The notes beneath the pieces are model-generated. The model saw nothing but the letters and a program-made list of their open reading frames with translations. It had not been told where the DNA came from and did no database searches. Source: Elusimicrobiota bacterium (GTDB lineage: Bacteria; Elusimicrobiota; Elusimicrobia; Elusimicrobiales; UBA9959). From it: a stretch of 32,909 bases of DNA. Below are positions 6,088 to 31,072 of this stretch, in pieces. The position numbers were made by a program, and so were the translations under genes. How positions within the stretch are numbered: the first letter of the stretch is position 1; each line of letters starts with the position of its first letter. The DNA lies in the NCBI GenBank assembly GCA_016234365.1, contig JACRER010000041.1:1-32909 (forward strand), read 5' to 3'.

Positions 6088-7788
6088 ATGGATATTAAAA
6101 AGAATTTCAACTGGAAAACGGCGGCTGTACCGGCCGTCGCGGCCACGGCCGCCCTGGCCGTGGGGATCGCCTACTACGCAGGCGGTTCCACGCAGGACGC
6201 GGAAACCGGCTCGAAGCCGGCCGAAGTCAACTTCTCCCAAAGCCCCAACTACGCCCCCGGCCAGAACCCGCTGGCGCGCTCGGCCCAGCCTCAGGCCTCC
6301 TCTATAGAGATATTCCGCTCGGTCAATAAAGGCTATTCCACCGATGCCGCGGCCGCGCCCGTCAAGCTCAGGCAGGCCGTGAAGCCGAAGAACCGCAAGG
6401 ACCTGCAGGATTTCCTGGCGCAGGTGCGCCACAACATAAATTACGAGACCGAGGCCCCGGAGGCTCCGGATGGGGGCGGCGTGACGCCTCAGCCCGGGGA
6501 GCGACGCGTCTACAACCCCGCCGGGCTGGGCAGCCGCTCGGCAGGGAAAGCGGCCGCGCTCCGGCAGAGCTCCATACCCAGGCTCAACGCTTCGGCGGGC
6601 GGCCAGCAGGCCGGCGGCCTGGGCGAAAAAAACTCGTCTTTTACGGTGGGAACTTTCGGCGGGGACGGCCCGCCCCCGGCGCTGCACGGCCCGGCGGCCG
6701 CGCGGCAGCAGCATGAGGCCGACGTGGCGGCCGCGGCTTCGGGCGGGGATGGCGCGGGAGCCTCTTCTTCCGGAAACGGCCAGGGAGGGGCGGGCGGCGG
6801 CTCCGGCCTGGCGGCCGGAGAATACGGTTCCCACGGCGGGGGCGGGGGCTCCAGGACCAGCACGGCAGGGGCCATGAAACAGGCTCAGGCAGAAGAAAAA
6901 GCGCCGCCGGCCCCGGTGGCCTATATCTGGCCCCGCAGCGTAGATTTCGGCGGCATGGCCATCAACGAGACTTCCAACCGCCTGGTGGTCGTCATGAACA
7001 TCGGCGACGCCCCGCTCGTCATAGGCGGCATCGAAAATATCGACGACGCTTCGCAGTTCTTTCTGCAGGCCGACAAATGCAGTTCCTCCACGCTGGCGCC
7101 CGGCAAGAGCTGCACTTTCCAGATAAAGTTCGCCCCGCAGGCCGCCAAGGAGCACGTGACGGCTTTCTATATCCCCACCAACGACGAAGGCTCCTCCTAC
7201 TACCAGACGTACATGGAGATAAAAGGCAAGGCCGCGGCTTCGCAATGGACGTCCTGGTGGGGACATTGGGGCGGACAGGCCGCGGGCCGCGTGAACAAGG
7301 CCGACTTCGGCATGGTCTCGGAGGGACAGAGCCTTACAGAAACCGTACGCGTTACCAACACCTCCGGCCAGGGCTGGTACAACCTCAAACTTAATTCGGC
7401 CAAACTCCCGGCCTGCTTCAGGATCTCCGGCGACAACTGCACCGGGACCACCCTGGGCGCGGGCCAATCCTGCGCCGCAACGGTCACCGTCACGCCCAGC
7501 GGTGCCGTTAACGCCAGGTTCGCCGGCGCCAACTACGGGCAGTACCTTTCACAGAACACGGAAACCAAGGCAAAGGTGTACAGCGCCCGCCCCAAGTACC
7601 CGCCGCTGCTGATGGAAGCCCCGGTGGAAGCGGAGCCGGCGGGCAGCTTCGCCGTGCTGGCCAGCTACAACGAGGAATTCTATACCGGCCAGCAGGAAGT
7701 GGCCGAGGTGCGGGTTTCAGGCAGGAGCACGGCACCGTTCCCGGTGCAGGGCCTGACGCGCATACACGTGTATTATTATTTCAAGTAG
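6088..7788 (+). CDS. Membrane-anchored protein with two choice-of-anchor/ASH-type Ig domains
   Basis: A 566-residue protein starting at 6088, chosen because GGAGG lies nine bases upstream and the promoter at 6017-6045 fits; an in-frame start at 5998 lies upstream of that promoter. Residues 11-31 form one hydrophobic segment (signal anchor). Residues about 35-270 are a low-complexity region rich in Pro, Ala, Gly and Gln, with several glycine runs. From residue 277 two related Ig-like domains follow, each with paired cysteines around a turn: DKCSSSTLAPGKSCTF and DNCTGTTLGAGQSCAATV, as in ASPM/SPD-2/Hydin and choice-of-anchor D domains. The protein most likely sits in the inner membrane with its folded part in the periplasm. 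Its role is unknown; it stands alone between a divergent operon and a terminator. Confidence 0.85.
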   Translation: MDIKKNFNWKTAAVPAVAATAALAVGIAYYAGGSTQDAETGSKPAEVNFSQSPNYAPGQNPLARSAQPQASSIEIFRSVNKGYSTDAAAAPVKLRQAVKPKNRKDLQDFLAQVRHNINYETEAPEAPDGGGVTPQPGERRVYNPAGLGSRSAGKAAALRQSSIPRLNASAGGQQAGGLGEKNSSFTVGTFGGDGPPPALHGPAAARQQHEADVAAAASGGDGAGASSSGNGQGGAGGGSGLAAGEYGSHGGGGGSRTSTAGAMKQAQAEEKAPPAPVAYIWPRSVDFGGMAINETSNRLVVVMNIGDAPLVIGGIENIDDASQFFLQADKCSSSTLAPGKSCTFQIKFAPQAAKEHVTAFYIPTNDEGSSYYQTYMEIKGKAAASQWTSWWGHWGGQAAGRVNKADFGMVSEGQSLTETVRVTNTSGQGWYNLKLNSAKLPACFRISGDNCTGTTLGAGQSCAATVTVTPSGAVNARFAGANYGQYLSQNTETKAKVYSARPKYPPLLMEAPVEAEPAGSFAVLASYNEEFYTGQQEVAEVRVSGRSTAPFPVQGLTRIHVYYYFK

Positions 7789-10353: not shown

Positions 10354-10856
10354 AGCCACGCCGCCCCGGCGCCGCCAGCCTTATAAGACTTTACCGCCTT
10401 AAACCGCACCCCGAGGGCGGCTACTTCAGGGAAACCTACCGGGCCTCCGGCAAAACCGTCACCGCGCGCGGCGCCCGCAATTTTTCCACCGCGGTATTAT
10501 TCCTGCTGTCAAAAGGGCAGACCTCGCGCCTGCACCGCATAGCCTCGGACGAGGTCTGGCATTTCTACTCCGGAGGCCCGCTGAAGGTCTCGGCCGTCCA
10601 TCCCGACGGGAGCACGAGCAGCGCGATACTGGGGCCCGATCCCTCGGCCGGGCACAAACCCCAGCACGTTGTCCCGGCCGGCTGCTGGTTCGGCGCGGCG
10701 CCGGAACCCGGAACCGCCTATTCGCTGGCCGGCTGCACCGTGGCGCCCGGCTTCGACTTCCGGGATTTCGAGCTGGGCGACAGGGGGGAATTGCTTAAAA
10801 AATTCCCTCGCGCCGCGAGAACTATAAGAAGCTTTACAGAACAAAGGATAAAATGA
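10350..10856 (+). CDS. DUF985/Cupin_5 family protein
   Basis: A 168-residue single-domain cupin. The family signature HPEGGYFRETYRA lies near residues 24-36; the cupin core follows with FLLSKGQTSRLHRIASDEVWHFYSG and VVPAGCWFGAAP, and ends in GCTVAPGFDFRDFEL. DUF985 proteins are double-stranded beta-helix proteins that may bind a metal and small ligands such as sugars; the biochemical reaction is not established. A GGAAGGG stretch precedes the ATG, which overlaps the lipoprotein stop; its own stop overlaps rnr by four bases. Confidence 0.93.
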   Translation: MKPRRPGAASLIRLYRLKPHPEGGYFRETYRASGKTVTARGARNFSTAVLFLLSKGQTSRLHRIASDEVWHFYSGGPLKVSAVHPDGSTSSAILGPDPSAGHKPQHVVPAGCWFGAAPEPGTAYSLAGCTVAPGFDFRDFELGDRGELLKKFPRAARTIRSFTEQRIK

Positions 10857-12886
10857 GAAAACACTGGAAACAAAAAGAAAAGCGCGGCGCCTCCGGCGGC
10901 CACGAAGCGATAGTAGAGGGCGTGATACAGCATAAAGGCACTTTCGCCTTCCTGCTGTCGGAAAAGCCCGGCGTAGAGGACGTTTTCATCCGCGGCCGCG
11001 GCCTGGACCTGGCCATGGACGGCGACAGGGTACAGGCGAAGGTGCGGCCCGAAAAGACCGGCCGCCTCGCCGGAGAGATCATAAAAGTGGTAAAGCGGGC
11101 GCACACCTCCATGGTAGGCATCCTGCGGCGCGTCAACAATTCCTGGGCGCTGTTCCCCGAGAAAGGCAGCGCGCCCCCGGCGCTGGTAAGCGGCTTCGCC
11201 CAGAAGCTGGTCCCGGTGGAAGGCTCTTTCGCGGTGCTGGAAGTAAAACGCTGGCCCGAGTCCGGCGCCGGCGCCTCCGGCATAGTCACCGAGATCCTCG
11301 GCGATCCCGGCGACATCCGCGCGCGCATAGACTCCATCCTGCGGGCCCGCGGCATCAACGAGGTTTTCCCTAAAGAAGTAACGGACCAGGCGGCCGCTTA
11401 CGGTTCCCGGCTCGAGCCGGCGGCCTGGAAAGGCCGCGAGGTCCTCTTCGACCTGCCGGTCTGCACCATAGACGGCGCCGACGCCAAGGACTTTGACGAC
11501 GCCGTTTCGCTGGAAGACCTGGGCAACGGCATGCTGCGCCTGGGCGTGCATATAGCCGACGTGGCCAATTACGTGAAGTTGGGGACCGCGCTGGACAAGG
11601 AAGCGTACGAACGCGCCACCAGCGTCTACCTGCCGGACCGCGTGGTGCCCATGCTGCCGCCGGCCCTGTCGGACAATCTCTGCAGCCTCGTACCGCGCCA
11701 GGAGCGCCTTACCCTGTCCGCCTTCATGGACATAGACCGCAACGGCAAGGTGACAAAACGCCGCCTGGCCGAAACGGTGATCCGCTCATGGCGCCGCTTC
11801 ACTTACGAGGAAGTGCAGGCCCTGCTGGACGGCGCCAGCGTGCCGGACGTCCACAAAAGCATCGGCGAAGCGGTGCTGCGCATGGGCGCGCTGATGGAAA
11901 CGCTCTACCGCCGCCGCGTGCAGCGCGGTGCACTGGACTTTAACCTGCCGGAATACAAAGTGAACGCGGACCCGCACGGCAGGCCGCTGGGCGTGTCGCT
12001 GCGGCCGCGGCTGAAAAGCCACCGGCTGATAGAGGAGTTCATGCTGCTGGCCAACGAGGCCGTGGCCACCGAACTCTACAACGCCAAGATGCCTTTCCTT
12101 CACAGGCGCCACGACACGCCGGACCCGCTGAAACTGAAGGCGCTCTCTTCTGCGCTGGGAGAACTGGGGCTGACCGCCGGCCACATAGAGGGCAAGAACG
12201 CCGCCAAAGGGCTGCAGGACGTGCTGCGCCAGGCGTCCGACCACCCGCTGACCAACCTCATAAACTCGCTGATGGTGCGCAGCATGCGCCAGGCCGTTTA
12301 CTCGCCGGAATCCGAGGGGCATTTTGGCATCGCCACGCGCTTCTACTCGCACTTCACGTCGCCCATACGCCGCTACCCCGACCTGATGACGCACCGCGCC
12401 GTAAAGTCGCTGCTGCGCGGCAAGAAAGAGAACCACGGCGCGCTGCCGCTGGACAAGGCCGGCGTGCATTGCTCCGAGCGGGAACGCGCGGCTTCCGACG
12501 CCGAGCATAAGTCGGTGGATATCATGCGCGCCGAGATGCTCAAGGAACTCGTGGGCTCCGTCATCGACGGCGCCGTCACCACCGTCATCGACAGCGGCGC
12601 CTTTGTAATGCTGGGCGAGACCGGCGCGGAGGGCCTGCTGCGCGTGAACGGGCTGAAGCCCGGCACCAAGGTGAAGGTGATGATAGCCGGCGTGGACACC
12701 GCCGAAGGGAAAATAGACCTGTCGCTGGAAGGGCGCCCGGCGCCCTCCGCCGGCGGCAAGCCGCAGGGCGGCGGCCAGGGGCAACCCAAGCCCGGGCGCG
12801 ACCGCTGGAAATTCTCGGACTGGAAAAAGGGCAAAGGCGGCGGTAACCGCGGCGGCGGACGCGGCCGGGGCCGCGGAAGGCGGTAA
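10853..12886 (+). CDS. rnr: Ribonuclease R (RNB-family 3'-5' exoribonuclease)
   Basis: A 677-residue RNase II/R protein. An N-terminal cold-shock-like OB fold (about residues 15-75) precedes the RNB domain, whose Mg2+ site is D207, D213, D215 and D216 in IDGADAKDFDDAVS. Other family blocks are PDRVVPMLPPALSDNLCSL and YSHFTSPIRRYPDL. It degrades structured RNA from the 3' end. The C-terminal S1 domain (from about residue 565) looks short: after AEGLLRVNGL it passes directly to KVKVMIAGVD, lacking about 25 residues usual between these strands. The last 50 residues are a Gly/Arg/Lys-rich tail. AAAGGA lies four bases before ATG. It ends the dtd operon and is followed by the structured element at 12913. 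Confidence 0.95.
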   Translation: MRKHWKQKEKRGASGGHEAIVEGVIQHKGTFAFLLSEKPGVEDVFIRGRGLDLAMDGDRVQAKVRPEKTGRLAGEIIKVVKRAHTSMVGILRRVNNSWALFPEKGSAPPALVSGFAQKLVPVEGSFAVLEVKRWPESGAGASGIVTEILGDPGDIRARIDSILRARGINEVFPKEVTDQAAAYGSRLEPAAWKGREVLFDLPVCTIDGADAKDFDDAVSLEDLGNGMLRLGVHIADVANYVKLGTALDKEAYERATSVYLPDRVVPMLPPALSDNLCSLVPRQERLTLSAFMDIDRNGKVTKRRLAETVIRSWRRFTYEEVQALLDGASVPDVHKSIGEAVLRMGALMETLYRRRVQRGALDFNLPEYKVNADPHGRPLGVSLRPRLKSHRLIEEFMLLANEAVATELYNAKMPFLHRRHDTPDPLKLKALSSALGELGLTAGHIEGKNAAKGLQDVLRQASDHPLTNLINSLMVRSMRQAVYSPESEGHFGIATRFYSHFTSPIRRYPDLMTHRAVKSLLRGKKENHGALPLDKAGVHCSERERAASDAEHKSVDIMRAEMLKELVGSVIDGAVTTVIDSGAFVMLGETGAEGLLRVNGLKPGTKVKVMIAGVDTAEGKIDLSLEGRPAPSAGGKPQGGGQGQPKPGRDRWKFSDWKKGKGGGNRGGGRGRGRGRR

Positions 12887-12912: not shown

Positions 12913-13043
12913 AAAAGCGGCAGGGCAGTGCTTCTGAGGGTTGTCGCGCAGGCCGAGGCTTACGAAAGCGACGAGGCCGAGCGACAAGGTGCGAGCACGG
13001 TGTGCGAGACACCGACCCGAAGAAGCATTGCCCTGCTGCTTTT
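12913..13043 (+). ncRNA. Structured RNA element A: three-way-junction fold, copy 1
   Basis: The 131-base segment starts 26 bases after the rnr stop. Closing stem P1 is 12913-12935 with 13021-13043: 23 pairs, 21 Watson-Crick and two G-U in the plus sense (on the minus strand they would be A-C mismatches). Inside, TTGTCGC (12941-12947) pairs with GCGACAA (12981-12987) and encloses a 28-base GGCC...GGCC hairpin (12951-12978). A second hairpin, 12988-13013, has GGTG/CACC and GCAC-GGT-GTGC. The same plan, spacing and 11-mer GCACGGTGTGC recur at 19779-19908. No open reading frame fits. It could be a cis-acting 3' end, a small RNA or a REP-like repeat; the function is unknown. Confidence 0.65.
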
Positions 13044-13051
13044 ACTGCCGG

Positions 13052-13777
13052 CTACTTTACCAGCAGGGACTTCATCTTTTCAATATCCTTGCGGTAAGCT
13101 TCCGACGCCAGCAGCTTGGCGTGGTACAGGTCGCCAAAGCGCTTGCCGGCCTCTATGTCAGTCAGGTAATGCACGCCGCCTATCACGCGGTCCTGCGCTA
13201 TCTCGTCGGCCTTGGCAAAGAACTCCGCCTTCCGCTCCGGCGCGATATCCGTAAGCACGTTGGCGAACACCCGCGAGAAAGTGGAATGCCCGCTGGGGTA
13301 CGAGAAGCCGCTGCTCTTCTTTATGCAGGGCTCGGCCTGGCCGGGATAGGCAACGAACGGCCTCGGGCGCTCCCAGCGCTCTTTCATGTTCGTAACGGCC
13401 TCGTCCAGGTCCAGCGCCAGCCGGTCGAAGAATTCTTTAACTTCCTTAGGCAGCGGTTCCGGGAACGGGCTTTTGGCTCCCCAGAAAGAATCGTAAGTTG
13501 CCTTGGCCGTGATCGCGGCCTTGTCGCAGTCGGCCTTAGTGCGTTTTTTCTGCCACCCCATCGTTACGGCTATGTCGGCCTTCTGCGCTTCCGAGGCCGG
13601 GGCGGGGGGAGGCGCGAAGTCCAGCGCCTTGAACTGCTCCGCCGGCACGTAATAGACCCGCTGCGATATCAGGTGGGCCCGCTTCAGGGCTATCTTGGAG
13701 GAAGGCGAAGAGCACGCGCCGCCGCCGAGGGCCAGCGCGAGGAAAACCAGTAAGAACTGTTTTTTGCGTAAAGTCAT
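13052..13777 (-). CDS. PAP2/class A acid phosphatase-type lipoprotein
   Basis: A 241-residue protein from ATG at 13777 (an in-frame TTG two codons earlier is less likely because the -10 box ends beside it). The N-terminus is a probable lipoprotein signal with LGGGAC and C22 as the acylation site. All parts of the PAP2 phosphatase signature are present: K132-x6-R139-P140, P161-S162-G163-H164, and R197-x5-H203-x3-D207. The histidines should form a phospho-enzyme and release phosphate from a soluble or lipid phosphate ester outside the cytoplasm. The mature part has no obvious membrane spans, so a soluble class A acid phosphatase type fits better than a lipid phosphatase. Substrate unknown. Confidence 0.92.
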   Translation of the reverse strand: MTLRKKQFLLVFLALALGGGACSSPSSKIALKRAHLISQRVYYVPAEQFKALDFAPPPAPASEAQKADIAVTMGWQKKRTKADCDKAAITAKATYDSFWGAKSPFPEPLPKEVKEFFDRLALDLDEAVTNMKERWERPRPFVAYPGQAEPCIKKSSGFSYPSGHSTFSRVFANVLTDIAPERKAEFFAKADEIAQDRVIGGVHYLTDIEAGKRFGDLYHAKLLASEAYRKDIEKMKSLLVK

Positions 13778-13783
13778 GCGCAA

Positions 13784-13815: not shown

Positions 13816-14982
13816 ATGACGAAACGTATCCTCTTTGTGCTGGCGCTCGGCGCCGCCTTTACCGCCCAGGCCGGCGCGCAGAGCGCCCTGCAACAGCTCG
13901 GCCCGGTTAAAACCGTAATGGTGCCCGCACCGGGAACCCCGCTTCCCGACGGCGGCCTGGACGCGCAGGGCATTTTCTCCACGGACAAATACAACTACCT
14001 CATCTGGGACGGCAAGTACAAGGGCGACTGGTACGAGTGGTGGTATTACAAGGTGGTGCTGCCCGGCACGGACAAGGCTTTTTACTTCTGCTACGGCGTG
14101 GTGAACCCCTGGGACAAGGCGCAGGCCAGGCCCGCGTCGCGCTCCTACGTAAGCGCGGGCAACTTTGAGACTGCCGAAACCTACGAACTGAAAGGCCCGG
14201 TGAAGGATTTCACGGCGAGCTCCGCCGCCACGCTGGTAAAGGTAGGCAGGAACACCGCCACCGACAAACAGCTGAAGGGCCGGATGAAACTTGCCGACGG
14301 CACGGAGGTCTCCTGGGACCTGGCCGTAGAAAAGGAATGGGGAGTGAACGCCATGGGCTGGACCATGTTCCAGCCCGTCATCTCCAACATCTTCTGGTTC
14401 CCGGCGCAGGCTTCCGCTTACATGACCGGCACGGTGAACTGGCGCGGCAGGATCTACAACATACAGCGCGCGCCGGCCTACCAGGACCGCAACTGGGGCA
14501 GCAGCTTCCCCAAGTGGTGGGCATGGCTGGTCTCCAACCATTTCAAGAATTCTCCCGGCACGGTACTTGCCGCCGGAGGAGGCCTGCCGACGGTGCTGGG
14601 GGGGATAGACTTCCCCAACGCCATGGGCATAGGCCTGCGCCATAACGGCCGCGAATACGCCTTCAGCCCGGGCAAGGGTGACGTTATAAAGTTGGACATT
14701 AATTTTGGCAAGTGGGAAGTGACCGCGCGCAACCGCCGCGGAGAACGCCTGGCTATTTCCGCCTGGGCGCCCCGCGAAAAATTCCTGCTCCTCAAGTTCA
14801 TGGCCCCGCAGGGTAAAGAGTTCTACGACTACGAGGCCCTTAAGGGCAACATCAAGGTGAGGCTCTACGAGAACGACCAGCTGACGGCCGACCTGGAGAC
14901 CGACGAGGGCGGCATAGAGTTCGGCTCCGCCGAACCCCAGGACTTCGGCGCCCTTTTCACCGGCGACCATAAACTCCAATAG
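13816..14982 (+). CDS. Secreted tocopherol-cyclase/CrtC-like lipocalin-fold protein
   Basis: A 388-residue protein with a signal peptide (residues 1-21, ending AQAGAQ). The motif GDWYEWWYYKVVLP near residues 70-83 and the later QDRNWGSSFPKWWAWLVSNH near 226-245 correspond to the two conserved blocks of tocopherol cyclase and hydroxyneurosporene-synthase (CrtC)-like proteins, which fold as paired lipocalin barrels and bind hydrophobic ligands. In plants and cyanobacteria such proteins act on tocopherol or carotenoid precursors; here the signal peptide puts the protein outside the cytoplasm, so a different hydrophobic substrate or a binding role is likely. No carotenoid or quinone gene lies nearby. 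The stop codon lies at the edge of a long hairpin. Confidence 0.85.
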   Translation: MTKRILFVLALGAAFTAQAGAQSALQQLGPVKTVMVPAPGTPLPDGGLDAQGIFSTDKYNYLIWDGKYKGDWYEWWYYKVVLPGTDKAFYFCYGVVNPWDKAQARPASRSYVSAGNFETAETYELKGPVKDFTASSAATLVKVGRNTATDKQLKGRMKLADGTEVSWDLAVEKEWGVNAMGWTMFQPVISNIFWFPAQASAYMTGTVNWRGRIYNIQRAPAYQDRNWGSSFPKWWAWLVSNHFKNSPGTVLAAGGGLPTVLGGIDFPNAMGIGLRHNGREYAFSPGKGDVIKLDINFGKWEVTARNRRGERLAISAWAPREKFLLLKFMAPQGKEFYDYEALKGNIKVRLYENDQLTADLETDEGGIEFGSAEPQDFGALFTGDHKLQ

Positions 14983-15047
14983 AGAAGCCGGGCTGTTTCC
15001 CTCGTCCGCCTAAGCGGGCGCGGCCTCGGGAAACAGCCCGGCTTCTC
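14982..15047 (+). terminator. Perfect 20-bp hairpin at the 3' end of the lipocalin-like gene
   Basis: Bases 14982-15001 and 15028-15047 are exact reverse complements (20 pairs). The 26-base loop holds a second hairpin, GTCCGC/GCGGGC (15004-15009 with 15014-15019). The last base of the stop codon is the first base of the stem. No T-run follows, so it is an atypical terminator or a 3'-end protecting structure. Confidence 0.6.
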
Positions 15048-16851: not shown

Positions 16852-18314
16852 CAGAAAAACGCTTTTTCCATTATTTCCTTTCCGCCCTGTCCGGTTTGAT
16901 GTTGGCCGCCGCCTACGCCCCTTTCGGGCACGGGCGCCTGGCCTGGGTGGCGCTGGCGCCGCTTTTCTACGCCGTGCTGGACAGCCGGGGCGCCTGGGCC
17001 GCCTTCAGGCGCGGGGCCGCCGCCGGCCTGGTCTTTTACGTCCTGTCCCTGATCTGGATGGCCAACGTGGTGCACTGGCTGGCCCTCGTTTTCTGGGGCG
17101 TCTTTGCCGGCTGGGTGGCGCTGCACGCCGGCCTTATGCGCGGGCTGCGCGACTGGGAAGGCGAGGGCCGCGGCCATTTAAAAGCGCTGCTGTGGGCCGC
17201 CGCCGCCGGCGCCGCGTGGACCGGCATAGAATATTTCCGTTCCGAGCTCTGGCCGCTGCGCTGCCCGTGGCTGGGCCTGGGCTATAGCCAGACTGACGTC
17301 CCTTCCATTTTCCAATCCCTGAGTTTCTGGGGCGTCTACGGCCTTTCCGGCTTCATGGCCGCGGCCAACGCCGCCTGGGCGCTGGCGGTGCGCCGGCGTT
17401 CCTGGCTGCCGGCGGCCGTTTTCGGCGCGGGGCTGGTGCTGCTGGCGGCGTGGGGCCGCCACAGGCTGGACTCGGTAATGGCCGAGAACGGTGAACCGCT
17501 CAAGGTGGCCCTGGTGCAGGCGGAAAGCGCCAGCCTGGATAAACTGTTGAAGTTCAGCCTCACGCCGGAGGCCAGGCAGGCGGACCTGCTGGTCTGGCCG
17601 GAGTATTCCTTTTACACGCCTTCGGACGCGGCGGGGGAAAAAGCCGTCCTGAATTACCTGCGGAAAGGACTTAAGCCTTCCAGGGCCGTAGCCGTGCTGG
17701 GCGCGGCGGTAATGGCGGACCCGGAACGCGGCGTAACGCGCGCCAACTACACGCTGGTGCTGGGCCGCGACAAGAAGCCCGCCGGCCGCTACGACAAAAT
17801 GCACCCGGTGCAGTTCGTCGAGGCCGGCCTGCCGGAAAATAAAAAGCCGGCGCCGGTAAACACCGAACTCGGCCTGCTCGGACCGCAGATCTGCTACGAC
17901 CTGGCCTTCGAGGACGGGACGCGCAAGGTGGCCCGCCAGGGCGCGCGCCTGCTTATTGTCCCGACGCTGGACCCGGCCGAATGGGGCCGCTGGCAGCACC
18001 TGCAGCATTCCGACATGTCCGCCGCGCGCGCGGTGGAATCCGGCCTGTGGCTGGTGCGTTCCGCTTCGTCGGGCTGGTCGCAGGTGATAGACCGCCTGGG
18101 CTTCACGCGGGCCTCGCTGGCGATGGGCCGGGAAGGCGTGCTTACGGCTACCGCCTACGCCGGACCCGGCGGCACCTTCTACACGCACCTGGGCTGGCTG
18201 CTGGCGCCGCTCTGCTTCCTTTTCACGCTGGCGGCCGGCGCGCTGCTGGCGTTCGTCAATTTCAGATCCACAGACGCAACCAAGGGAGACCGCACGAATG
18301 ACCGACACGACTGA
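16848..18314 (+). CDS. lnt: Apolipoprotein N-acyltransferase
   Basis: A 488-residue protein with several N-terminal membrane segments (to about residue 205), a nitrilase-like domain (residues about 215-450) and a last C-terminal span. The catalytic triad of Lnt is present: E252 in LLVWPEYSF, K317 in RYDKMHP, and C349 in GPQICYDLAFED. The enzyme adds the third acyl chain to the N-terminal cysteine of lipoproteins in the inner membrane, using phospholipid as donor. Start at 16848 overlaps the methyltransferase stop; a longer reading from 16698 lies within that gene. It overlaps the MFS gene by 17 bases. Lipoproteins encoded at 9646 and 13052 are likely clients. Confidence 0.95.
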   Translation: MTEKRFFHYFLSALSGLMLAAAYAPFGHGRLAWVALAPLFYAVLDSRGAWAAFRRGAAAGLVFYVLSLIWMANVVHWLALVFWGVFAGWVALHAGLMRGLRDWEGEGRGHLKALLWAAAAGAAWTGIEYFRSELWPLRCPWLGLGYSQTDVPSIFQSLSFWGVYGLSGFMAAANAAWALAVRRRSWLPAAVFGAGLVLLAAWGRHRLDSVMAENGEPLKVALVQAESASLDKLLKFSLTPEARQADLLVWPEYSFYTPSDAAGEKAVLNYLRKGLKPSRAVAVLGAAVMADPERGVTRANYTLVLGRDKKPAGRYDKMHPVQFVEAGLPENKKPAPVNTELGLLGPQICYDLAFEDGTRKVARQGARLLIVPTLDPAEWGRWQHLQHSDMSAARAVESGLWLVRSASSGWSQVIDRLGFTRASLAMGREGVLTATAYAGPGGTFYTHLGWLLAPLCFLFTLAAGALLAFVNFRSTDATKGDRTNDRHD

Positions 18315-19767
18315 GACCTCTTTTATAGGCAAGTTCACCGTACTTAAAGGCGCGGTACGCGAACTCTGGATAATCTTCGGCACGAAGATCATGACCATCC
18401 TGGCCTACAGCCTGGTGAACTCCGTGCTGGTGTTGTGGCTTTCCTCGGACCTGCGGCTCAGCGACAAGGGCGCGGGCTGGATAATAGGTTACTGGTCCAT
18501 AATCATGACCGCCTTCACCATCATGGTCGGCTCCTTCGTGGACGCCGTCGGCGTGCGCAGGTCCCTGATGGCCGGCTTCGGGCTGGCCGCGCTGGCCCGC
18601 CTTGTAATGGCTTTCTTCGCCGCTAAATGGATAGCCATCCCGTTCGGCCTCTTCCCGCTGGCGCTGGGCGAAGCCCTGCAGACCCCGGTAATGGCGGCGG
18701 CGGTAAAGCGCTTCACCACCACCAAGCAGCGCTCCATAGCCTTCTCGGTCTATTATTCCATGATGAACGTGGGCTTTGCCATAGCGGCCTACGTGGTGGA
18801 CAAAGTGCGCGGCGGCATGGGCGAATACGGCCATTTTACGGTGCCATATCTCGGCGTCCAGGTCAGCACTTACCAGACCATCATCCTCCTGGGTATGGCA
18901 TGCACCCTGCCTAACCTCATCCTGACCTGGCTGGCCATGCGCGAAGGCGTGGAAGCCACCGACGAAGGCGTCAAAATAGTCCCGCTGGTCCCCAAATACC
19001 CCGGCGAATCCTTCCTGAAAGCTTTCCTGCTGGCCAGCCGCGACGCGCTGAAGGACTGGTGGCGCATCTTCAGTTCGCTGTGGTCGCAGCAAACCTTCTA
19101 CCGCTTCCTCGCTTTCTTCGCCTTCGTGGTCTTCGCCAAGCTCATCCTGTTCCACTTCTACTACACCTTTCCCAAGGTGGCCATCCGCGAACTCGGCGAA
19201 GGCGCCCCTTTCGCCCGCCTCTTCGGCTTCCTGAACGCGGTGGTGGTCATTATCCTGGCGCCGGTGATAGGCGCGCTGACGCAGAAGTTCACCGCCTACA
19301 AGACCGTGGTCATCGGCACGGCCCTTACCGCGCTGTCCGTCTTCCTGATGGCCCTGCCGGCCGGCCTGTTCCAGGGCCTGGCCGACGGCTACTTCGGCTC
19401 GTCCATAGTCTGGTGGCTCGGCCTGGTGCGCCCGCTTAACCCGCTCTACGCGGCCATTGTGATGTGCGTGCTTATCTACTCCGTCGGGGAATGTTTCTAC
19501 TCGCCGCGCCTTTACGAATACCCGGCCGCTATAGCGCCCAAGGGGCAGGAGGGTTCCTACCTGGCGCTCTCCATGCTGCCTTATTTCGTGGCCAAGTTCT
19601 TCGCCGCGCCGCTGTCCGGCTACCTGCTGGCGGCCTATTGTCCGGCCGAAGGCCCTCGCAACTCGCAGATAATCTGGCTGATAGTGGGCTCCATGGCGCT
19701 GATAGCGCCCATCGGCCTGCTGCTGGCCAGGCGCTACATCCAGGTGCACGAAGCCGGCCGGGAGTAG
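18298..19767 (+). CDS. MFS transporter
   Basis: A 489-residue membrane protein with about 12 predicted hydrophobic spans. The loop between spans 2 and 3, GSFVDAVGVRRSLMAG, is the MFS A-motif (GxxxDxxGxR). A long cytoplasmic loop of about 60 residues lies between spans 6 and 7 (residues about 215-265). The overall feel resembles peptide/POT or sugar-phosphate carriers, but no substrate motif is seen. The start is preceded by a GGGAG box inside lnt. It closes the peptidase-lnt operon; co-transcription with an M20 peptidase is compatible with a peptide or amino acid substrate, which is only a suggestion. Confidence 0.88.
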   Translation: MTDTTETSFIGKFTVLKGAVRELWIIFGTKIMTILAYSLVNSVLVLWLSSDLRLSDKGAGWIIGYWSIIMTAFTIMVGSFVDAVGVRRSLMAGFGLAALARLVMAFFAAKWIAIPFGLFPLALGEALQTPVMAAAVKRFTTTKQRSIAFSVYYSMMNVGFAIAAYVVDKVRGGMGEYGHFTVPYLGVQVSTYQTIILLGMACTLPNLILTWLAMREGVEATDEGVKIVPLVPKYPGESFLKAFLLASRDALKDWWRIFSSLWSQQTFYRFLAFFAFVVFAKLILFHFYYTFPKVAIRELGEGAPFARLFGFLNAVVVIILAPVIGALTQKFTAYKTVVIGTALTALSVFLMALPAGLFQGLADGYFGSSIVWWLGLVRPLNPLYAAIVMCVLIYSVGECFYSPRLYEYPAAIAPKGQEGSYLALSMLPYFVAKFFAAPLSGYLLAAYCPAEGPRNSQIIWLIVGSMALIAPIGLLLARRYIQVHEAGRE

Positions 19768-19778
19768 CCCGGCCAGGA

Positions 19779-19908
19779 GCGCGCCGGCAGGGGGCCGGGT
19801 TAGCAAAACCATCAGAAGGCCGGGCCTTGCGTAAGCGGCCCGGCCGGATGAGGAGTGAGGGCACGGTGTGCCCGAACGTTTTTGCGTTCCGGCCCCCTGT
19901 CGGCGCGC
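19779..19908 (+). ncRNA. Structured RNA element B: three-way-junction fold, copy 2
   Basis: The 130-base segment starts 11 bases after the MFS stop. P1 pairs 19779-19799 with 19888-19908: 21 pairs, 19 Watson-Crick and two G-U in the plus sense. P2 is a 28-base hairpin (19818-19845): GGCCGGGCC pairs with GGCCCGGCC and encloses GC-GTAA-GC, a GNRA-type tetraloop; CATC (19810-19813) and GATG (19847-19850) extend it. P3 is GGGCAC-GGT-GTGCCC (19859-19873), sharing the 11-mer GCACGGTGTGC with element A at the same offset of 82 bases. P2 has the same length as in A. No open reading frame fits. Function unknown. Confidence 0.65.
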
Positions 19909-19976: not shown

Positions 19977-21593
19977 ATGACCGAACCCAAAGACCTCTAC
20001 TCATGCCTGGCCAGAACGGCCGAAAGGGACCCTGAAGAAACCGCCTACGTTACCGGCGACAAGCGCATGTCCTGGCATGAGGTTTTGTTCTCCGTGGACC
20101 GGGCGGCCGACATGTTCTGGCAGCTGGGCCTGCGCAAGGGCGACCGCGCCGCCATAGTGCTGCGCAACTCCACGGAATTCATCATTTCCTATTTCGCCAT
20201 GGCCAAGATAGGCGCCGTGGCCGTGCCGATAAACTTCATGGTCTCCAAGGGCGAGGAGATCTCCTACATCCTGGAAAACTCCGCCTGCAAGGGCGTGGTG
20301 ACGGAAAAAGAGTTCATCAAGAACTACACGGCCGTAAAAAAGAACCTGCCCGGCCTGAAGTTCATGATCTCCGCGGATTTCTGCGGCGTGGACGGAGTGG
20401 TGGATTTCTGGCATTACCTCAAGCACGCCCATTACCACCCCCAGACCCAGAAGCCGGCCGCCGACGAACACGACCTGGCGTCCATCCTTTACACCTCTGG
20501 CACCACCGGCCACCCCAAGGGCGTGCTGCTCTCGCATCATAACATGACCGAGAACGCCAAGTCGGCCATTTCCGTGATAGACCCCACCAAGAAGGACGTC
20601 TTCATGGCGCTGCTGCCCATGTTCCACACCTTCTCGTGGACCGGCAACGTCATAGCGCCCATCCTGGTGGGCTGCAAGACCATGATAGTGAAGAACCTCA
20701 CGCCGCCCAAGCCCTGGCTGCAGGCCATGGGCCGCGAGGGCGTGACCATAATGATAGCCGTGCCGCAGATCTACGGCGTGCTGGCCAAGGAGGCCAAAGG
20801 CCTCAAGAAGTTCTTCCTGAAGTTCTGGAGCCTGCGCAAGGTGCGCTTCTGCCTGTCCGGCGCGGCGCCGCTCAACAAGACCATAACGGAGCACTTCAAC
20901 AAGGCTTTCGGCCTGCACATCCTGGAAGGCTACGGCCTCACCGAAACCAGCCCCGTGGTTACCATCAACCCGCCCAAGGGCCGCAAGCACGGCTCGGTGG
21001 GCCGCGCCATCCCCGGCGTGAAGATCCGCATAGTGGACGAGCAGGGCAACCACCTCAAGCACGGCGAGGAGGGGGAGATCTGCGTGATGGGCCCCAACAT
21101 CACCCGCGGCTACCACGGCAACGACCAGGCCACGCGCGAACTGTTCACGCAGGACGGCTGGCTCAAGACCGGCGACATAGGCGTGCTGGACACCGACGGC
21201 TTCCTCTTCATCCGCGACCGCAAGAAGGATATGGTGATAGTGAAGGGCCTCAAGGTGTTCCCGGCCCAGATCGAGCACACCATCTGCACCCATCCCAAGG
21301 TGCTGGAGAACGCCGTAATAGGCATTCCCGACGGCTCCGGCAACGAGACCATGAAATGCTTCGTGGTGGGCAAACCCGACGTGGCGCTGGAGAAAGCCGA
21401 GATCATGCAGTTCATAAAGGCGAATTTCGACGCCTACAAGCGCCCGCGCGACGTGGAGATAGTCCACGCCCTGCCCAAGAACGCCCTGCAGAAGGTGCTT
21501 AAGCGCGAGCTCCTGCGCAAAGAGCTGGAGAAACGCGCGGCCGCGGCCGGCGCGGCGCACCATGAAAAACACCCGCACGCGGCGCACGGCTGA
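19977..21593 (+). CDS. Long-chain acyl-CoA ligase (AMP-forming)
   Basis: A 538-residue member of the ANL adenylating superfamily. The P-loop-like A3 motif LYTSGTTGHPKGVLLSHHN lies near residues 171-189, the A5 motif GYGLTETSPV near 320, and the hinge and C-terminal motifs GWLKTGDIG and RDRKKDMVIVKGLKVFP near 390-425. The catalytic lysine is expected near the C-terminus in KNALQKVLKR. It should activate a fatty acid to acyl-AMP and then acyl-CoA in the cytoplasm. The last residues form a short His-rich tail (HHEKHPHAAHG), which is unusual. It is followed after 32 bases by the tRNA nucleotidyltransferase gene. Chain length cannot be told. Confidence 0.93.
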   Translation: MTEPKDLYSCLARTAERDPEETAYVTGDKRMSWHEVLFSVDRAADMFWQLGLRKGDRAAIVLRNSTEFIISYFAMAKIGAVAVPINFMVSKGEEISYILENSACKGVVTEKEFIKNYTAVKKNLPGLKFMISADFCGVDGVVDFWHYLKHAHYHPQTQKPAADEHDLASILYTSGTTGHPKGVLLSHHNMTENAKSAISVIDPTKKDVFMALLPMFHTFSWTGNVIAPILVGCKTMIVKNLTPPKPWLQAMGREGVTIMIAVPQIYGVLAKEAKGLKKFFLKFWSLRKVRFCLSGAAPLNKTITEHFNKAFGLHILEGYGLTETSPVVTINPPKGRKHGSVGRAIPGVKIRIVDEQGNHLKHGEEGEICVMGPNITRGYHGNDQATRELFTQDGWLKTGDIGVLDTDGFLFIRDRKKDMVIVKGLKVFPAQIEHTICTHPKVLENAVIGIPDGSGNETMKCFVVGKPDVALEKAEIMQFIKANFDAYKRPRDVEIVHALPKNALQKVLKRELLRKELEKRAAAAGAAHHEKHPHAAHG

Positions 21594-25405: not shown

Positions 25406-28400
25406 ATGAATCTCAGAAAGGCCATCCCTTTATCTTTGCTGGCGCTGTTGCTTTGCGCGCCGGCCGCGCGCGCCCTTAACTTCGGGCGCCACGGCCACAC
25501 CACCACGCTGCTGCCCAACGGCAACGTCCTGGTGACCGGCGGCGTCACCGGCATAGCTAACGCCCAGACCAACATCGACGAGGTTTTCTTCACCTCCGCC
25601 TCGGCTTTCGGCTACGGCTCCAATTCCGGCATGCCGGTCAGCATCGCGTCGCACACGGCCACGCTGATGGGCAACGGCATGGTGCTGGTGGCCGGCGGCT
25701 TCAACGGCGTGCTGCCGGTTGATGCGGCCTCGCTGTACAGCCCCAAGACCGGTCTCTGGACCAACCTGAACCCCATAGTAATGACCACCCGCCGCGGCGG
25801 CCACACCGCCACGCTCATAAACAAAGGCCCCAACTCCGGCAAGGTGCTCATCTGCGGCGGCCAGACCAACGTCGCCGGCGCACCGGTCATCGCTAACAGT
25901 TGCGAATTATTCACGCCCAATCCCGGCAACCCGCTCACCGGCTCTTTCGCCGCCGCCCAGGGCATGTCCAGCGAACGCATGGGCCACACCGCCAGCTCCA
26001 TAGCGGGGGGAAGGGTGTTCGCCTCCGGAGGCCGCCGCTGGGACGCCGCCAACTCCACCTGGACCTACCTGTCCACCAACGAGATCTACAACCCCGATAA
26101 CGACCAGTGGCAGCCGGTCACCGCCCTCGCCTCAGGCAGGGCCGAGCATACCGCCGTAGTCCTGAACAACGGGAACATACTTATTTCAGGAGGCTTCAAC
26201 GGAGCCAACAGGTTCGACGCGCCGGAAGAATACTGGTACCGGACCGCCGCCGGGATGTCACAGCAGCAGACTGCCGGCAGCCGTGGCTTCATGGAGAGCG
26301 CTGAGATCTTCGACTCCAACGGCGGCCGCGTCCCCGTTACCGGGGATGACTTCTCCGTAATGCCGTACAGGGTAGCCCGGCATTCCGCAGTGCTGCTGCC
26401 CGACGGCAAACAGCAGATCTACGGCGGTTACGGCAATATCCCGCCCACGTTCTTCGAGCAATCCCCGACCTTTGAACCAGGCTCCCAGGTCAATACCCAA
26501 AAAACAAATACCATGACGGCCAATGTGCTGCCAAGCAGCATCCTCCGTTATCTGCTGGAGTTCAACCTTTCCCGGCCCGTCAGCGGTCGCCTTGTGGAGG
26601 CGGACCTGTACTTCCCGGATTACCTGTCCGAAATTCCCTCCATCTCAGTTGCCAACGCCGAGATCTATATCAACAGGGGCAGGTCCGTCGCCGACAGTAT
26701 GGGGGTGGGCGGCACTATTGGATACGGCGGAGGCGTCTTCAAGAACGTCGTCCTGTTCGACAGCCCCACCGGAACGGCCGTATTCTCGCGCACTAAAGTT
26801 TCCGCGGACAAGACCCCCGCGACGGCCGGGTCCACCTTCATCTTCGTCCCGAACCCGATCCCGCCCAAAAATCCGGCCGTGCCATTGTCGGCCGGCTCTA
26901 TCCTTAACCTTTCGCTCACCATCCCGGTCCCCAGGGCTTACGTGGGCGGTATTATCAGCGGCACCATGACCATCACCGGCGGCCAGGTACTGGACGACGC
27001 CCTTGGCTACTGGAACGTGAACCTGCTGGGCGGGTCTGCCCCGTTCACCAGCGGCGTGGTAACCGACGACGTGCTTAACGGCACAGGCTGGGCCACCGGC
27101 AACATCTCTTTTACGAGTTTGGTGGGGGAGATAATAAACTCCACAGAAACGGCCCTCAGCAGCCCCAGGAACCCGACTGGAAACTTTGTAAGGGGGCTCT
27201 CCCTTACCGCGGATTACACCTCCACCGTGATCGATGTTGAGGACGCTAAATTCACGCTGACCGGTTCCTCCATGATAGTGCGTGAAATGATCTTCGCCGA
27301 CGCGCTGGCCTATGATCCGGCCACCGCCAAGTGGGAATTCGGCCCCACGGTCTTCCCCATCTTCAACCACTCCACCCTGGTCACGCCGGGAGCCGACGCC
27401 TTTATCATAGGCGGCCGCAATTGCGAACTTGCCCCCGATCCCGATTGCCTGCGCGCAAACAAGACCTTCACGGCCTCCGCGGCCGGCGCCGCCTACATAG
27501 AGCAGAACAGCAATGACTGGCAAGCGGCCGGTAAGTTGGGGCATAAGCGGGCCTTCCATTCCAGCACGCTGCTGGCCAACGGCAAGATCCTGGCCTGCGG
27601 CGGCTCCGACGGCACCGTAACCCTGGACTCCTGCGAACTTTTCGACCCGGCCACGGCCATCTGGACCGCCGCGGGCCCCATGACCTCGCCCCGCTCGCGC
27701 CATACCGCCACCATGCTGCCCAACGGCCGGGTGCTGGCTGCCGGCGGCACCGTGCACGCCTCCACACAGGTGATAGCCACGGCGGAGATCTACTACCCCG
27801 ACACTAACCGCTGGATAGCCATAAACTCCATGGTCACCCCGCGCGCCAACCACTCCGCCGTGCTCATGCCGGACGGCAACGTGCTGGTGACCGGCGGCGA
27901 CACCATCAACGGCTACACCAACACCTCCGAGATCTACCTTACCACCAGCTCCGTGTGGATAACCGCCGGCAACCTGGGCACAGGCCGGGCGCAGCATACC
28001 GCCACCCTGCTGCGCAACGGCAACGTGCTGGCAACAGGCGGCATAAACGGCACCGGCGGCCTGCGGTCCACCGAGATCTTCGACTTTGCGGCCAGGACCT
28101 GGTCCGCCGGAACCAACATGGCTTCCAGGCGCTACGGCCATACCGCCAACCTGCTGATGGACGGCCGGGTCATGGTGATCGGCGGTTCCGACGGGATCTC
28201 TCCTTTGGAAACCGGCGAGATCTACGCCGGCGCCAACTGGAACGCTATAAGCGGCATGCTGGTACCACGCGCCAACCACCGCACAACCCTGCTGCCCAAC
28301 GGCAAACTGCTGCTGACCGGCGGCGAGCGGCCCGGTATCGCACATTCCGTGGTCGAGGGCTACGACGTGGATTTCAGCACTTTCCAGACCCAGGGCGGTA

Positions 28401-31072
28401 TCTACAACCGCACTAACCACACAGCCGTACTGACCTCCAGCAACATGGTGGTGGTGGCCGGCGGCTGGAACGGGTCGCAGTACCTGGATTCCACGCAACT
28501 GGCATATTTCAGCTACTACCCGGACTCCTCCGGCTACCCGTCGGCTATCCAGCGCAACCCGCTGGTCTCCACCGCTACCGCCATCCTGGACCGGGGCGAC
28601 AGGCTGACGCTGCTCAGCGGCACCTCCAATTTCCACGGCATTTCAGAAGCCGCCGGCGGCGGCGCCGGGTCCATGAATGCTTCGCATCACAACCCGCGCG
28701 TCTACCTGCAGCAGATAGACAGCCCCAGCGGCTACCTGCTGGACATGACCACCCGCCTGTACACTCTTTACGGCGGCCCCAACTCTACCTGGGACACTAC
28801 CGTCTCTTCCATAACAATAACCCTGCCGCCCAACGCCTGGGAAATGCCCTACGGCTGGTATCACGCCCGCGTGGCGGCCAACGGCCAGTTCTCGCCCGGC
28901 ATACCCGTGCAGGTCTCGCAGCCGCGCCCCGCCGGCGTCCCTACCGCGCCCACCGCCTCCAATATCAGCCCCAGCTCCATCACCTGGTCCTGGACCAACG
29001 GCGGCGTCGCTACCGCCGACGGCTACGCCATCTACGCCTCCAGCGACGGGGTGTTCATTTCCACCATAGCTTTCGGGGCGGCGCCGTCCTACACGCAGAC
29101 GAACCTGCAGCCCAACACCATCATCTCTATCAAGGTGAACGCCTACAACACCGGCGGCGGCGGCCCGCTGGCGCAGTCCTCCACCTATTACACGCTGGCG
29201 TCCTCGCCCACTTTCCTGGCGGTCACGCAGGCCAACTTCACCACGGCTTCGCTGGCCTGGGGGGACAATAATAATTCCCCTTACACCCAGTACGAGCTGT
29301 CCATGTGCAAGGACTCCAACTTCGCCAGCCCGGTGGCCATTTCCACGCCCATACCGTTCAATCTCAACTACACCAGCACTTCCGCAACGGTGACCAGCCT
29401 CTCGGCGGACAAGATGTATTACTTCCGCGTCAGGGCGCGCAACGGCGCGGGGATAACCACTAACTTCCAATCCAAAGACCTGCTGGGCAACACGGTCTCC
29501 ACCATAACCGTTTCCGCGATGAACAACTTCTCCGGGACCGCCGTCAGCACGCACGCCATCAACTGGGCGTGGAGCGCCTCCGACGGCGCGGACTACTACG
29601 AGCTTTTCGACATCACCGTGGACACTTCGCTGCCGGTCTTCGTGGGCTCCACCACGTTCACCGACCTGACGCAGGCCGGCCTGCTGGCCAACGTCCCGCA
29701 CCTGGTGGCCGCCCGCGCCGCCAAGAACAACCCCGGGTTTGGCGCGGTCTACGGGCCCCTCACGCCCCCGCAGTTCGTCTATTCCCTCGCGTCACCGCCG
29801 CTGCCCCACCCTACCGACCCGTTCATCGACGTGACCACCGGCAGCTTCACCATGAACTGGCTGGACAACGGCAACTCCACCTGGACCGTCTACAGGGTAT
29901 CCATCTCCACCGCCAGCGATTTCACGGCCAACGCCACCAGCACGGTCTCCGTGGTCGGGACCACCCGGGCCTTCGGCAAACTGGGCGCCAACACGCGCTA
30001 CTACGTCAAACTCGCCGCCATTAACGGGGACGGCGTCTATTCCTCCTATCTCTCCATGGGCACCAAGTACACGCTGGCCCGCGCGCCCGCCGGCGTTACG
30101 CCCACCGACATACAGATGTCCGGAGTCACCATCGCCTGGGACAAGAACAACAATTCCCCGGAAACCATCTACGAGGTGCGCGGCACTACCGGCAGCTTCC
30201 TGGACACGGTGGTCACCCACCTGCCGTTCTACCTGGGCTACACCGGCAACACCCACACCATGAGCGGCCTGCTCACCGCCACCACTTACTATTTCGACGT
30301 CGCCGCGAAGAACGGAGAAGGGATCATGTCCCCGAGGGCGCAGGCCGTACCGGCCGCCTTCACCACCCCCGGGCCCGCCGGCTCGCCCGCCGGCTCCATC
30401 GGCGGCGTAGCCTCGCCCACGGTCCAGACCGTGATCTCGGGCACGCTGCCCAACGCCCGCTCCGTCACCCTTACGGTCCCGCCCGGTTCTTTCCCGGTAG
30501 CCACGGCCATCGCCGTTTCGTCCTCGGTCAGGAGCAGCTGCGGCTCCTATACCGTCTGCGGCCAGACGGTGGACGTGGAGGTCTTCAGCCAGAACGCCGC
30601 GCAGCCGCAGGTGCCCGTGACGCTGCAGCTCGGCTACGGCTGCACCATCCCCGACACTTCGAAGCTGGTCATCGCGCGCTACAACGAGGTTTCAGGCGAA
30701 TGCCTGCCGCTCGAGACCCGCATAGACCCGGGCGCGCGCACCATCACCGCCACGCTCAACCACTTCAGCGAGTTCCAGCTGATGCTGCGCACCGCTTCCA
30801 CAAGCCTCACGGACGTCAAGATCTACCCCAACCCGTTCCGCACCAACCGCGGCAACGGCTTCATGACCATCGCCAACATGCCCGCCGGCGCCAGCGTGCG
30901 CCTCTACACCCTGTCCGGCGACAAGGTGTGGGAAGGCACCGCGGACGGCACCGGCATCATCATCTGGCGCGGCGTCAACAAATCCGGCCAGCTGGTGGCC
31001 AGCGGCGTCTACCTGGCCGTTATCGATTCCACCGCCGGCAAGAAAGTTTTCAAACTGGCGGTTGAAAGGTAA
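25406..31072 (+). CDS. Giant secreted kelch/fibronectin III protein with type-A-sorting-like C-terminus
   Basis: An 1,888-residue protein with a signal peptide ending PAARA. At least 14 kelch-like motifs of the form HTATLLPNGNVLVTGG occur, six in residues about 28-345 and eight in about 640-1030. A beta-rich region of about 300 residues (350-640) with no recognised family separates them. Residues about 1040-1170 resemble the galactose-oxidase early-set domain. Five fibronectin III domains follow (about 1175-1660), then a ZU5-like segment with VPPGSFPV, and a C-terminal domain from about 1802: VKIYPNPFR, VRLYTLSGDKVWEG, LVASGVYLAVID and KKVFKLAVER. That end matches FlgD-Ig/type-A sorting domains cut or anchored during secretion. 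The PorV-like gene starts two bases after its stop. It is probably exported to the cell surface. Confidence 0.9.
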   Translation: MNLRKAIPLSLLALLLCAPAARALNFGRHGHTTTLLPNGNVLVTGGVTGIANAQTNIDEVFFTSASAFGYGSNSGMPVSIASHTATLMGNGMVLVAGGFNGVLPVDAASLYSPKTGLWTNLNPIVMTTRRGGHTATLINKGPNSGKVLICGGQTNVAGAPVIANSCELFTPNPGNPLTGSFAAAQGMSSERMGHTASSIAGGRVFASGGRRWDAANSTWTYLSTNEIYNPDNDQWQPVTALASGRAEHTAVVLNNGNILISGGFNGANRFDAPEEYWYRTAAGMSQQQTAGSRGFMESAEIFDSNGGRVPVTGDDFSVMPYRVARHSAVLLPDGKQQIYGGYGNIPPTFFEQSPTFEPGSQVNTQKTNTMTANVLPSSILRYLLEFNLSRPVSGRLVEADLYFPDYLSEIPSISVANAEIYINRGRSVADSMGVGGTIGYGGGVFKNVVLFDSPTGTAVFSRTKVSADKTPATAGSTFIFVPNPIPPKNPAVPLSAGSILNLSLTIPVPRAYVGGIISGTMTITGGQVLDDALGYWNVNLLGGSAPFTSGVVTDDVLNGTGWATGNISFTSLVGEIINSTETALSSPRNPTGNFVRGLSLTADYTSTVIDVEDAKFTLTGSSMIVREMIFADALAYDPATAKWEFGPTVFPIFNHSTLVTPGADAFIIGGRNCELAPDPDCLRANKTFTASAAGAAYIEQNSNDWQAAGKLGHKRAFHSSTLLANGKILACGGSDGTVTLDSCELFDPATAIWTAAGPMTSPRSRHTATMLPNGRVLAAGGTVHASTQVIATAEIYYPDTNRWIAINSMVTPRANHSAVLMPDGNVLVTGGDTINGYTNTSEIYLTTSSVWITAGNLGTGRAQHTATLLRNGNVLATGGINGTGGLRSTEIFDFAARTWSAGTNMASRRYGHTANLLMDGRVMVIGGSDGISPLETGEIYAGANWNAISGMLVPRANHRTTLLPNGKLLLTGGERPGIAHSVVEGYDVDFSTFQTQGGIYNRTNHTAVLTSSNMVVVAGGWNGSQYLDSTQLAYFSYYPDSSGYPSAIQRNPLVSTATAILDRGDRLTLLSGTSNFHGISEAAGGGAGSMNASHHNPRVYLQQIDSPSGYLLDMTTRLYTLYGGPNSTWDTTVSSITITLPPNAWEMPYGWYHARVAANGQFSPGIPVQVSQPRPAGVPTAPTASNISPSSITWSWTNGGVATADGYAIYASSDGVFISTIAFGAAPSYTQTNLQPNTIISIKVNAYNTGGGGPLAQSSTYYTLASSPTFLAVTQANFTTASLAWGDNNNSPYTQYELSMCKDSNFASPVAISTPIPFNLNYTSTSATVTSLSADKMYYFRVRARNGAGITTNFQSKDLLGNTVSTITVSAMNNFSGTAVSTHAINWAWSASDGADYYELFDITVDTSLPVFVGSTTFTDLTQAGLLANVPHLVAARAAKNNPGFGAVYGPLTPPQFVYSLASPPLPHPTDPFIDVTTGSFTMNWLDNGNSTWTVYRVSISTASDFTANATSTVSVVGTTRAFGKLGANTRYYVKLAAINGDGVYSSYLSMGTKYTLARAPAGVTPTDIQMSGVTIAWDKNNNSPETIYEVRGTTGSFLDTVVTHLPFYLGYTGNTHTMSGLLTATTYYFDVAAKNGEGIMSPRAQAVPAAFTTPGPAGSPAGSIGGVASPTVQTVISGTLPNARSVTLTVPPGSFPVATAIAVSSSVRSSCGSYTVCGQTVDVEVFSQNAAQPQVPVTLQLGYGCTIPDTSKLVIARYNEVSGECLPLETRIDPGARTITATLNHFSEFQLMLRTASTSLTDVKIYPNPFRTNRGNGFMTIANMPAGASVRLYTLSGDKVWEGTADGTGIIIWRGVNKSGQLVASGVYLAVIDSTAGKKVFKLAVER

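Follow-up and report, generated by a model that had tools for sequence, protein, structure and literature searches.

REP sequences have been proposed to play a role at gene 3' ends, against exonuclease decay or read-through, and ERIC/RU-1 is an imperfect palindrome of which insertion variants occur. In one account, REP and BIME sequences are dispersed intergenic palindromes lying 3' of genes, in codirectional or convergent settings and often as close inverted pairs (PMC3733652); paired inverted units are also described for the REPIN/RAYT system (PMC3116915), while ERIC/RU-1 is presented as an element of about 127 bp, MITE-like in character (PMC2759123). Our literature searches found no paper on such repeats in Elusimicrobia, and the family-wide repeat system presented here, from a phylum that has received little attention, seems not to have been described before. 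Its starting point is an element of an Elusimicrobiota contig, called copy B, which lies in a stretch of 32,909 nucleotides (the window; Table 1) and is a member of a mobile-looking repeat family rather than a private 3' UTR RNA.

The structure of copy B is confirmed as a real, strongly structured feature: its minimum free energy is -97.9 kcal/mol, compared with a mean of -60.2 (sd 3.6) for shuffled sequences (z = -10.5), and 0 of 200 shuffles equalled it. Fold prediction reproduced the drawing of the initial annotation, namely the closing stem of 21 pairs with two G-U, the P2 hairpin with 9 perfect pairs and an inner GC-GTAA-GC cap, and P3 with 6 pairs on GGGCACGGTGTGCCC. The covariance model R1 matches copy B at 19782-19905 with 107.6 bits. 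The P2 arm is, in other copies, the place of optional small hairpin inserts.

Table 1. Coordinates of the two repeat copies of the window, their parts and the neighbouring genes.
Feature	Position	Strand	Basis
Repeat copy B, subfamily S1, three-way junction, 21-pair closing stem	19779-19908	+	fold, covariance model
Closing stem 5' arm, copy-specific sequence	19779-19799	+	fold, arm comparison
Closing stem 3' arm, complementary to 5' arm within copy B	19888-19908	+	fold, arm comparison
P1b 5' side GCAAAA, partner TTTTGC at 19880-19885; conserved in S1	19803-19808	+	fold, alignment
P2 arm, GC-GTAA-GC tip	19809-19853	+	fold
P3 arm with family cap CACGGTGTG (GCACGGTGTGC at 19861-19871)	19855-19877	+	fold, cap pattern
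Repeat copy A, subfamily S4; outer stem preceded by an A-run and followed by a T-run	12913-13044	+	model R1, context
MFS transporter, neighbour of copy B, stop codon 11 nt before 5' arm	18298-19767	+	
AMP-binding ligase, neighbour of copy B, same strand	19977-21593	+	
RNase R-like (RNB domain), neighbour of copy A	10853-12886	+	
PAP2-family protein, neighbour of copy A, convergent; start uncertain (13777 from gene caller)	13052-13783	-	

Copies A and B had been taken for relatives, and indeed R1, which was built from the 23 sequences of the alignment A2 described below, among which copy A is absent, matches copy A at 12915-13041 (63.1 bits, E 1.4e-12). A plain repeat finder run on the window did not report the pair. 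The sequence TTTT follows the stem of copy A and not that of copy B. Both copies had also been placed after the last gene of an operon; this holds for copy A, where the RNase R gene is followed by the convergent PAP2-family gene, and is uncertain for copy B, since the ligase gene begins 209 nt past the MFS gene on the same strand. The window contains another long hairpin, at 14982-15047, directly at a gene end and devoid of a three-way junction, with 28-nt arms that are 89% complementary and a 10-nt loop; a very long ORF (25406-31072; 1888 aa), perhaps encoding a repeat-domain protein, includes ten copies of a 56-nt DNA repeat, many of them about 140-150 nt apart.

The reading of these elements as an RNA present in two copies did not survive the search of the genome (2.72 Mb in 100 contigs), where the 36 matches to R1 reveal a dispersed repeat family. 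Of the 27 sequences matched by a blastn-type search with a limit of E ≤ 10, those that are unambiguous and lie beyond the window have identities of 96% (108 nt), 94% (110 nt), 84% and 76%; the P3 cap pattern SCACGGTGTGS gave 49 hits, against 2 for the reversed control, about 35 of the 49 being element-like by eye and fold and the remainder lying in genes or unfolded. At E ≤ 0.01, R1 found the repeat in 32 of the 32 genomes of the genus, with 9-101 matches each; at E ≤ 0.001, 50 of 340 genomes of the phylum were positive, that is, the 32 of the genus, 15 of the 27 others of the family and three of the same class beyond the family, the latter with weak E-values (1.9e-9 to 7.8e-7). Among the matches listed by a scan with a 20-base pattern, most came from MAGs of Elusimicrobia or Elusimicrobiota, some of them groundwater- or lake-named, and a few matches assigned elsewhere seem to reflect chance or mis-binned sequence. 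Over 1830 nt, one such record (L170, entitled Magasanikbacteria GW2011_GWA2_37_8) aligns at 83% identity to L208, a contig of an unclassified MAG in which the element is present, which suggests that L170 was mis-binned. Rfam 15 gave no match at gathering score.

Four or five subfamilies share a common plan: the stem P1 closes the element, there is an internal loop, and of the other two arms P2 is long and P3, which bears the cap CACGGTGTG, is short. The constancy of the cap is partly due to the choice of loci, because most of them were recruited via the cap motif. The versions of P2 are interchangeable, some of them carrying a small extra hairpin, and outer and inner parts recombine, as in a copy that is S3-like outside and S4 inside (L063). 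The GNRA cap proposed for P2 stands for copy B and fails as a feature of the family, in which it is found in 54 of 109 distinct aligned copies (GTAA 43, GCAA 9, GAAA 1, GTGA 1; other loops include ATA 11, GTA 10 and ATAA 10). Inside P2, the loci L035, L038, L041, L042, L046, L051 and L107 carry small hairpins patterned on GTGGAGCGAAGCGACAC, after which comes TTTCTTG or CGCAGTG; these hairpins occur across otherwise unrelated subfamilies and resemble a mobile cassette nested in the element.

The interpretation that we favour, to which we assign a probability of about 0.66, is that of a family of mobile hairpins, non-coding and non-autonomous and akin to REP, BIME and MITE elements, that our searches found in one Elusimicrobiota family, with a few weak matches in other families of the class. 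One trace of insertion was found in pairs of loci chosen by an all-against-all comparison that served only this choice: L173 holds, at 7100-7420, an element with its own arms, and its orthologue L256 (91% identical over 6.8 kb) is devoid of both the element and any hairpin; an 18-bp stretch, single in L256 with one base different, flanks the element of L173 on both sides. By eye, this insertion lies at the start of an ABC permease-like gene; a similar 18-bp repeat was observed at L240. No target-site duplication emerged as a general feature: except for two 18-bp cases, direct repeats on either side of the 132 copies compared were at their longest no longer than with shuffled partners.

In two relatives (G014 and G019), paired termini CCGCGAGAWGCNNAGTCGGG, also written CCGCGAGA..., form terminal inverted repeats that bound composite units of about 320-440 bp in 8 of 8 fetched examples, which had been selected for terminal matches a few hundred bases apart; each unit contains one or two elements, which in most cases lie head to head across a spacer or next to a related hairpin. 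A stretch of about 317-341 nt is common, at 91-95%, to five loci of G029 (L362-L365 and L369), the outer flanks of which are unaligned in that comparison. The units L382-L389 of G014 and G019 mostly contain two inverted hairpins, with a predicted single-strand fold of -180 to -260 kcal/mol. No terminal inverted repeats were seen for the copies of the window, and the genome has a single weak match to the composite termini, so that the window copies are regarded as solo copies. As to the mobiliser, the matches listed for four genomes revealed no long pair of terminal repeats with room for an autonomous element between them, nor was an autonomous long copy with its half-ends apart seen in the listed cases of the fetched loci. 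RAYT/Y1_Tnp was discarded as a candidate, being unlinked: the cap motif occurs in 0 of 42 Y1_Tnp loci, within about 1-2 kb, and the five of the 32 genus genomes in which no Y1_Tnp was detected still carry copies. Y1_Tnp (RAYT-like) genes are otherwise common and varied, being present in 27 of the 32 genomes with up to nine in each.

The sites orthologous to those of the window bear on a different proposal, which we consider unlikely, namely that the core lands in, or replaces the core of, hairpins already present at gene ends, the arms belonging to the site and only the core being mobile. Among 23 loci examined at the MFS/ligase site, a copy is present in the same orientation in our genome, G021, G013 and G014, and inverted in G026; simple hairpins occupy the site in G022, G023 and G001, others have nothing there, and several show a different gene order. 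G009, looked at separately, has a terminator-like hairpin nearby. The outermost arm reads GGCGTGAC in three relatives and GGCGCGCC in our genome; this motif is shared round cores that differ, ours being 77%, 72% and 59% identical to those of the three relatives and 98% and 92% identical to copies elsewhere in its own genome. At the site of copy A, the cap motif was found within 300 nt of the end of the RNase R match in our genome only, among 29 loci (a few of which are cut off early, so that the scan there falls inside the gene), and about 20 of the 29 have a bidirectional terminator of the type AAAAAACCGGAGG..CCTCCGGTTTTTT; at both sites, relatives without the element have ordinary terminator-like hairpins. 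The shared outer motif, the inverted core of one relative and the terminator-like position of copy A, between an A-run and a T-run, all speak for a mobile core; however, arm length is nearly constant within a subfamily, unlike that of random host hairpins, and the only clean empty site, that of L256, lacked a hairpin, the insertion having brought its own arms. Insertion into pre-existing hairpins is thereby weakened as the whole story.

Returning to the mobile hairpin family as a whole, its fold is conserved and carries compensatory changes, as had been anticipated from the window. In A2, an alignment of 23 distinct S1 sequences (15 of the 38 first collected across many genomes having been removed for excessive similarity), 95.4% of cells are paired, a two-sided compensated change is found in 25 of the 38 consensus pairs, and the covariation score is 0.421, against 0.109 for shuffled and at most 0.063 for slid controls. 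A3 covers 100 loci with 109 distinct matches to the model; 94.3% of its cells are paired and 34 of the 38 pairs show two-sided change, figures that lean towards the model because A3 was fitted to R1. The existence of one defined folding strand is likewise supported: within the stems (positions 2-16 of S2, 1-16 of S3 and 1-17 of S1, the fixed wobble at position 1 of S2 being excluded), G-U pairs number 99 and A-C mismatches 31, compared to 92 and 128 outside them (positions 20-26), all of these being non-independent events since the copies are related. S3 alone runs against the trend (8 against 11), and the excess is weaker in the outermost 12 pairs of 170 copies (105 against 71); one wobble column of A3 contains UG 33 times, GU 23 times and A-C never. 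A lenient arm search (185 copies; G-U 868, A-C 618) ran the arms too far, into genes, and its counts were set aside in favour of those from a strict search, which retained 170 of the 185.

Outside the anchors of the core, pairing within a copy is high up to about 16-19 nt and then drops, reaching background 17-20 nt outside the S2, S3 and S1 anchors, with a near-uniform arm length per subfamily; pairing with the arm of another copy is clearly lower at the majority of the variable positions. Pairs of copies whose cores differ by at most 6% and whose flanks are unrelated were scored at 16 positions of the arms (the unpaired class comprising positions where pairing is absent in one or both copies); the 20 pairs of S1, with a mean core difference of 2.3%, gave 154 positions that were the same, 113 with two-sided paired change, 10 with one-sided paired change and 43 unpaired; the corresponding figures are 149, 33, 12 and 30 for the 14 pairs of S3, and 904, 226, 121 and 157 for the 88 pairs of S2, in which one-sided change is common. 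The arms thus differ as complementary pairs round near-identical cores: in several cases the cores are identical and the arms differ at 8-10 of the 16 positions, and copy B shares a core 97.8% identical with L002 and only 6 of 16 arm pairs. For copies that separated so recently, stepwise compensation is difficult to believe. The changes may come from arms exchanged as blocks, from replaced cores or from one arm being copied off the other; a speculative and rather improbable version is that of a selfish hairpin rewriting both arms at once, the core being copied faithfully, one arm freshly drawn and the other copied from it, as might happen by self-primed or template-switched synthesis on the folded single strand during movement. 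Such a mode of replication or insertion has, to our knowledge, not been described for REP or MITE elements and, if true, would provide a private matched stem at each landing site.

The preponderance of two-sided over one-sided change, in the arms of S1 pairs with near-identical cores (113 against 10) as well as in the S1 alignment (128 against 19 cells), together with random orientation, would also be expected if the element were an inverted repeat at the level of DNA only, its palindrome maintained through template switching at the replication fork (quasi-palindrome correction), without selection on a folded strand; this explanation is nevertheless quite improbable, in view of the G-U excess confined to the stems and of the wobble column devoid of A-C, and such correction alone yields neither dispersal nor conserved internal loops. 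The initial annotation had held that copies in random orientation relative to genes, with A-C mismatches as common as G-U, would point to a DNA-level repeat; orientation is random, whereas A-C is clearly the rarer of the two. The combination of random orientation and G-U excess fits a mobile repeat to which the folding of one of its strands, as RNA or ssDNA, is itself of importance.

The genomic setting of the copies was analysed with a home-made codon-usage gene caller, 162 of the 170 strictly defined copies having two neighbours and the other eight being left out, their neighbour missing or the copy inside a called gene. The expected location near gene 3' ends is borne out: 77 of the 112 copies between same-strand genes, made up of 28 of the 53 in sense and 49 of the 59 in antisense orientation, are nearer to the stop than to the next start, 60 of the 112 lying within 30 nt of the stop and 31 within 30 nt of the start, and 36 copies are in a convergent setting against 14 in a divergent one, gaps of at least 20 nt in those loci numbering 38 and 34, respectively. 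The same 112 copies, 53 sense and 59 antisense, do not support the idea that the RNA is the plus-sense 3' end of the upstream operon, which given this random orientation cannot be the general explanation; indeed, counted in the sense of the element, G-U exceeds A-C both in antisense (125 against 34) and in sense copies (107 against 44), so that the excess must have a source other than the transcript of the upstream gene. An intrinsic terminator was rejected as the general identity of the element, no T-run being seen in general and the fraction of T being 0.17-0.39 per position over the 14 nt that follow it (89 copies with the upstream gene on the element's strand). A host-encoded 3'-end RNA module of plus-strand operons, kept for the benefit of the host (stability, attenuation or sRNA release), is quite improbable for, whereas the preference for gene ends, the conserved fold with its G-U excess and the position of the window copies after plus-strand genes, where relatives have terminator-like hairpins, would suit it, the orientation is random, antisense copies share the G-U preference, only 5 of the 23 MFS/ligase loci carry a copy, one of them inverted, and our genome is alone in having the cap motif among the 29 RNase R loci, a few of these being cut off early.

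For the mobile hairpin family, we infer that a trans-acting enzyme would move the element while it is folded as a single strand, RNA or ssDNA, whose polarity is fixed, and a form of this kind would produce the G-U preference whatever the direction of the gene. Between stop codons, the element would be tolerated and perhaps useful, as a 3'-end hairpin limiting exonuclease decay or read-through. The hundreds of copies in 32 genomes are enough to count selection at the RNA level apart from the upkeep of palindromes at the DNA level, and the occurrence of near-identical cores with rewritten complementary arms raises the question of how the two sides of a stem can be altered jointly. In a repeated element, covariation may have a source other than stepwise compensation, which calls for caution in pipelines that take covariation as proof of a cis-acting RNA.

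Compared to the known systems, the Elusimicrobiota repeat shares with REP/BIME the downstream, codirectional or convergent placement and the inverted pairs. It differs in its branched unit of about 110-180 nt (REPs being of 20-40 bp with an unpaired GTAG or CGTC tag) and in its copy-specific outer arms, some of which contain GTAG as a string of letters (GCGGTAGG); it is thus set apart from REP proper by size and by the lack of RAYT association (0 of 42 loci). With REPIN/RAYT it has in common the paired inverted units and the presence of Y1_Tnp in 27 of the 32 genus genomes, whereas its copies lie away from the sampled Y1_Tnp genes and persist where none was detected. As far as a comparison by description allows, it is, like ERIC/RU-1, an intergenic, MITE-like imperfect palindrome with insertion variants, but it belongs to another phylum and forms a three-way junction with the CACGGTGTG cap. 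In common with MITEs, it is short and non-coding, and it has terminal inverted repeats in its composite form of about 320-440 bp; as to the other MITE traits, no autonomous partner was noticed among the matches listed for four genomes, and 132 copies gave two direct repeats of 18 bp and no general target-site duplication. In place and dispersal, the Elusimicrobiota repeat works like the REP/BIME and MITE elements, which it resembles.
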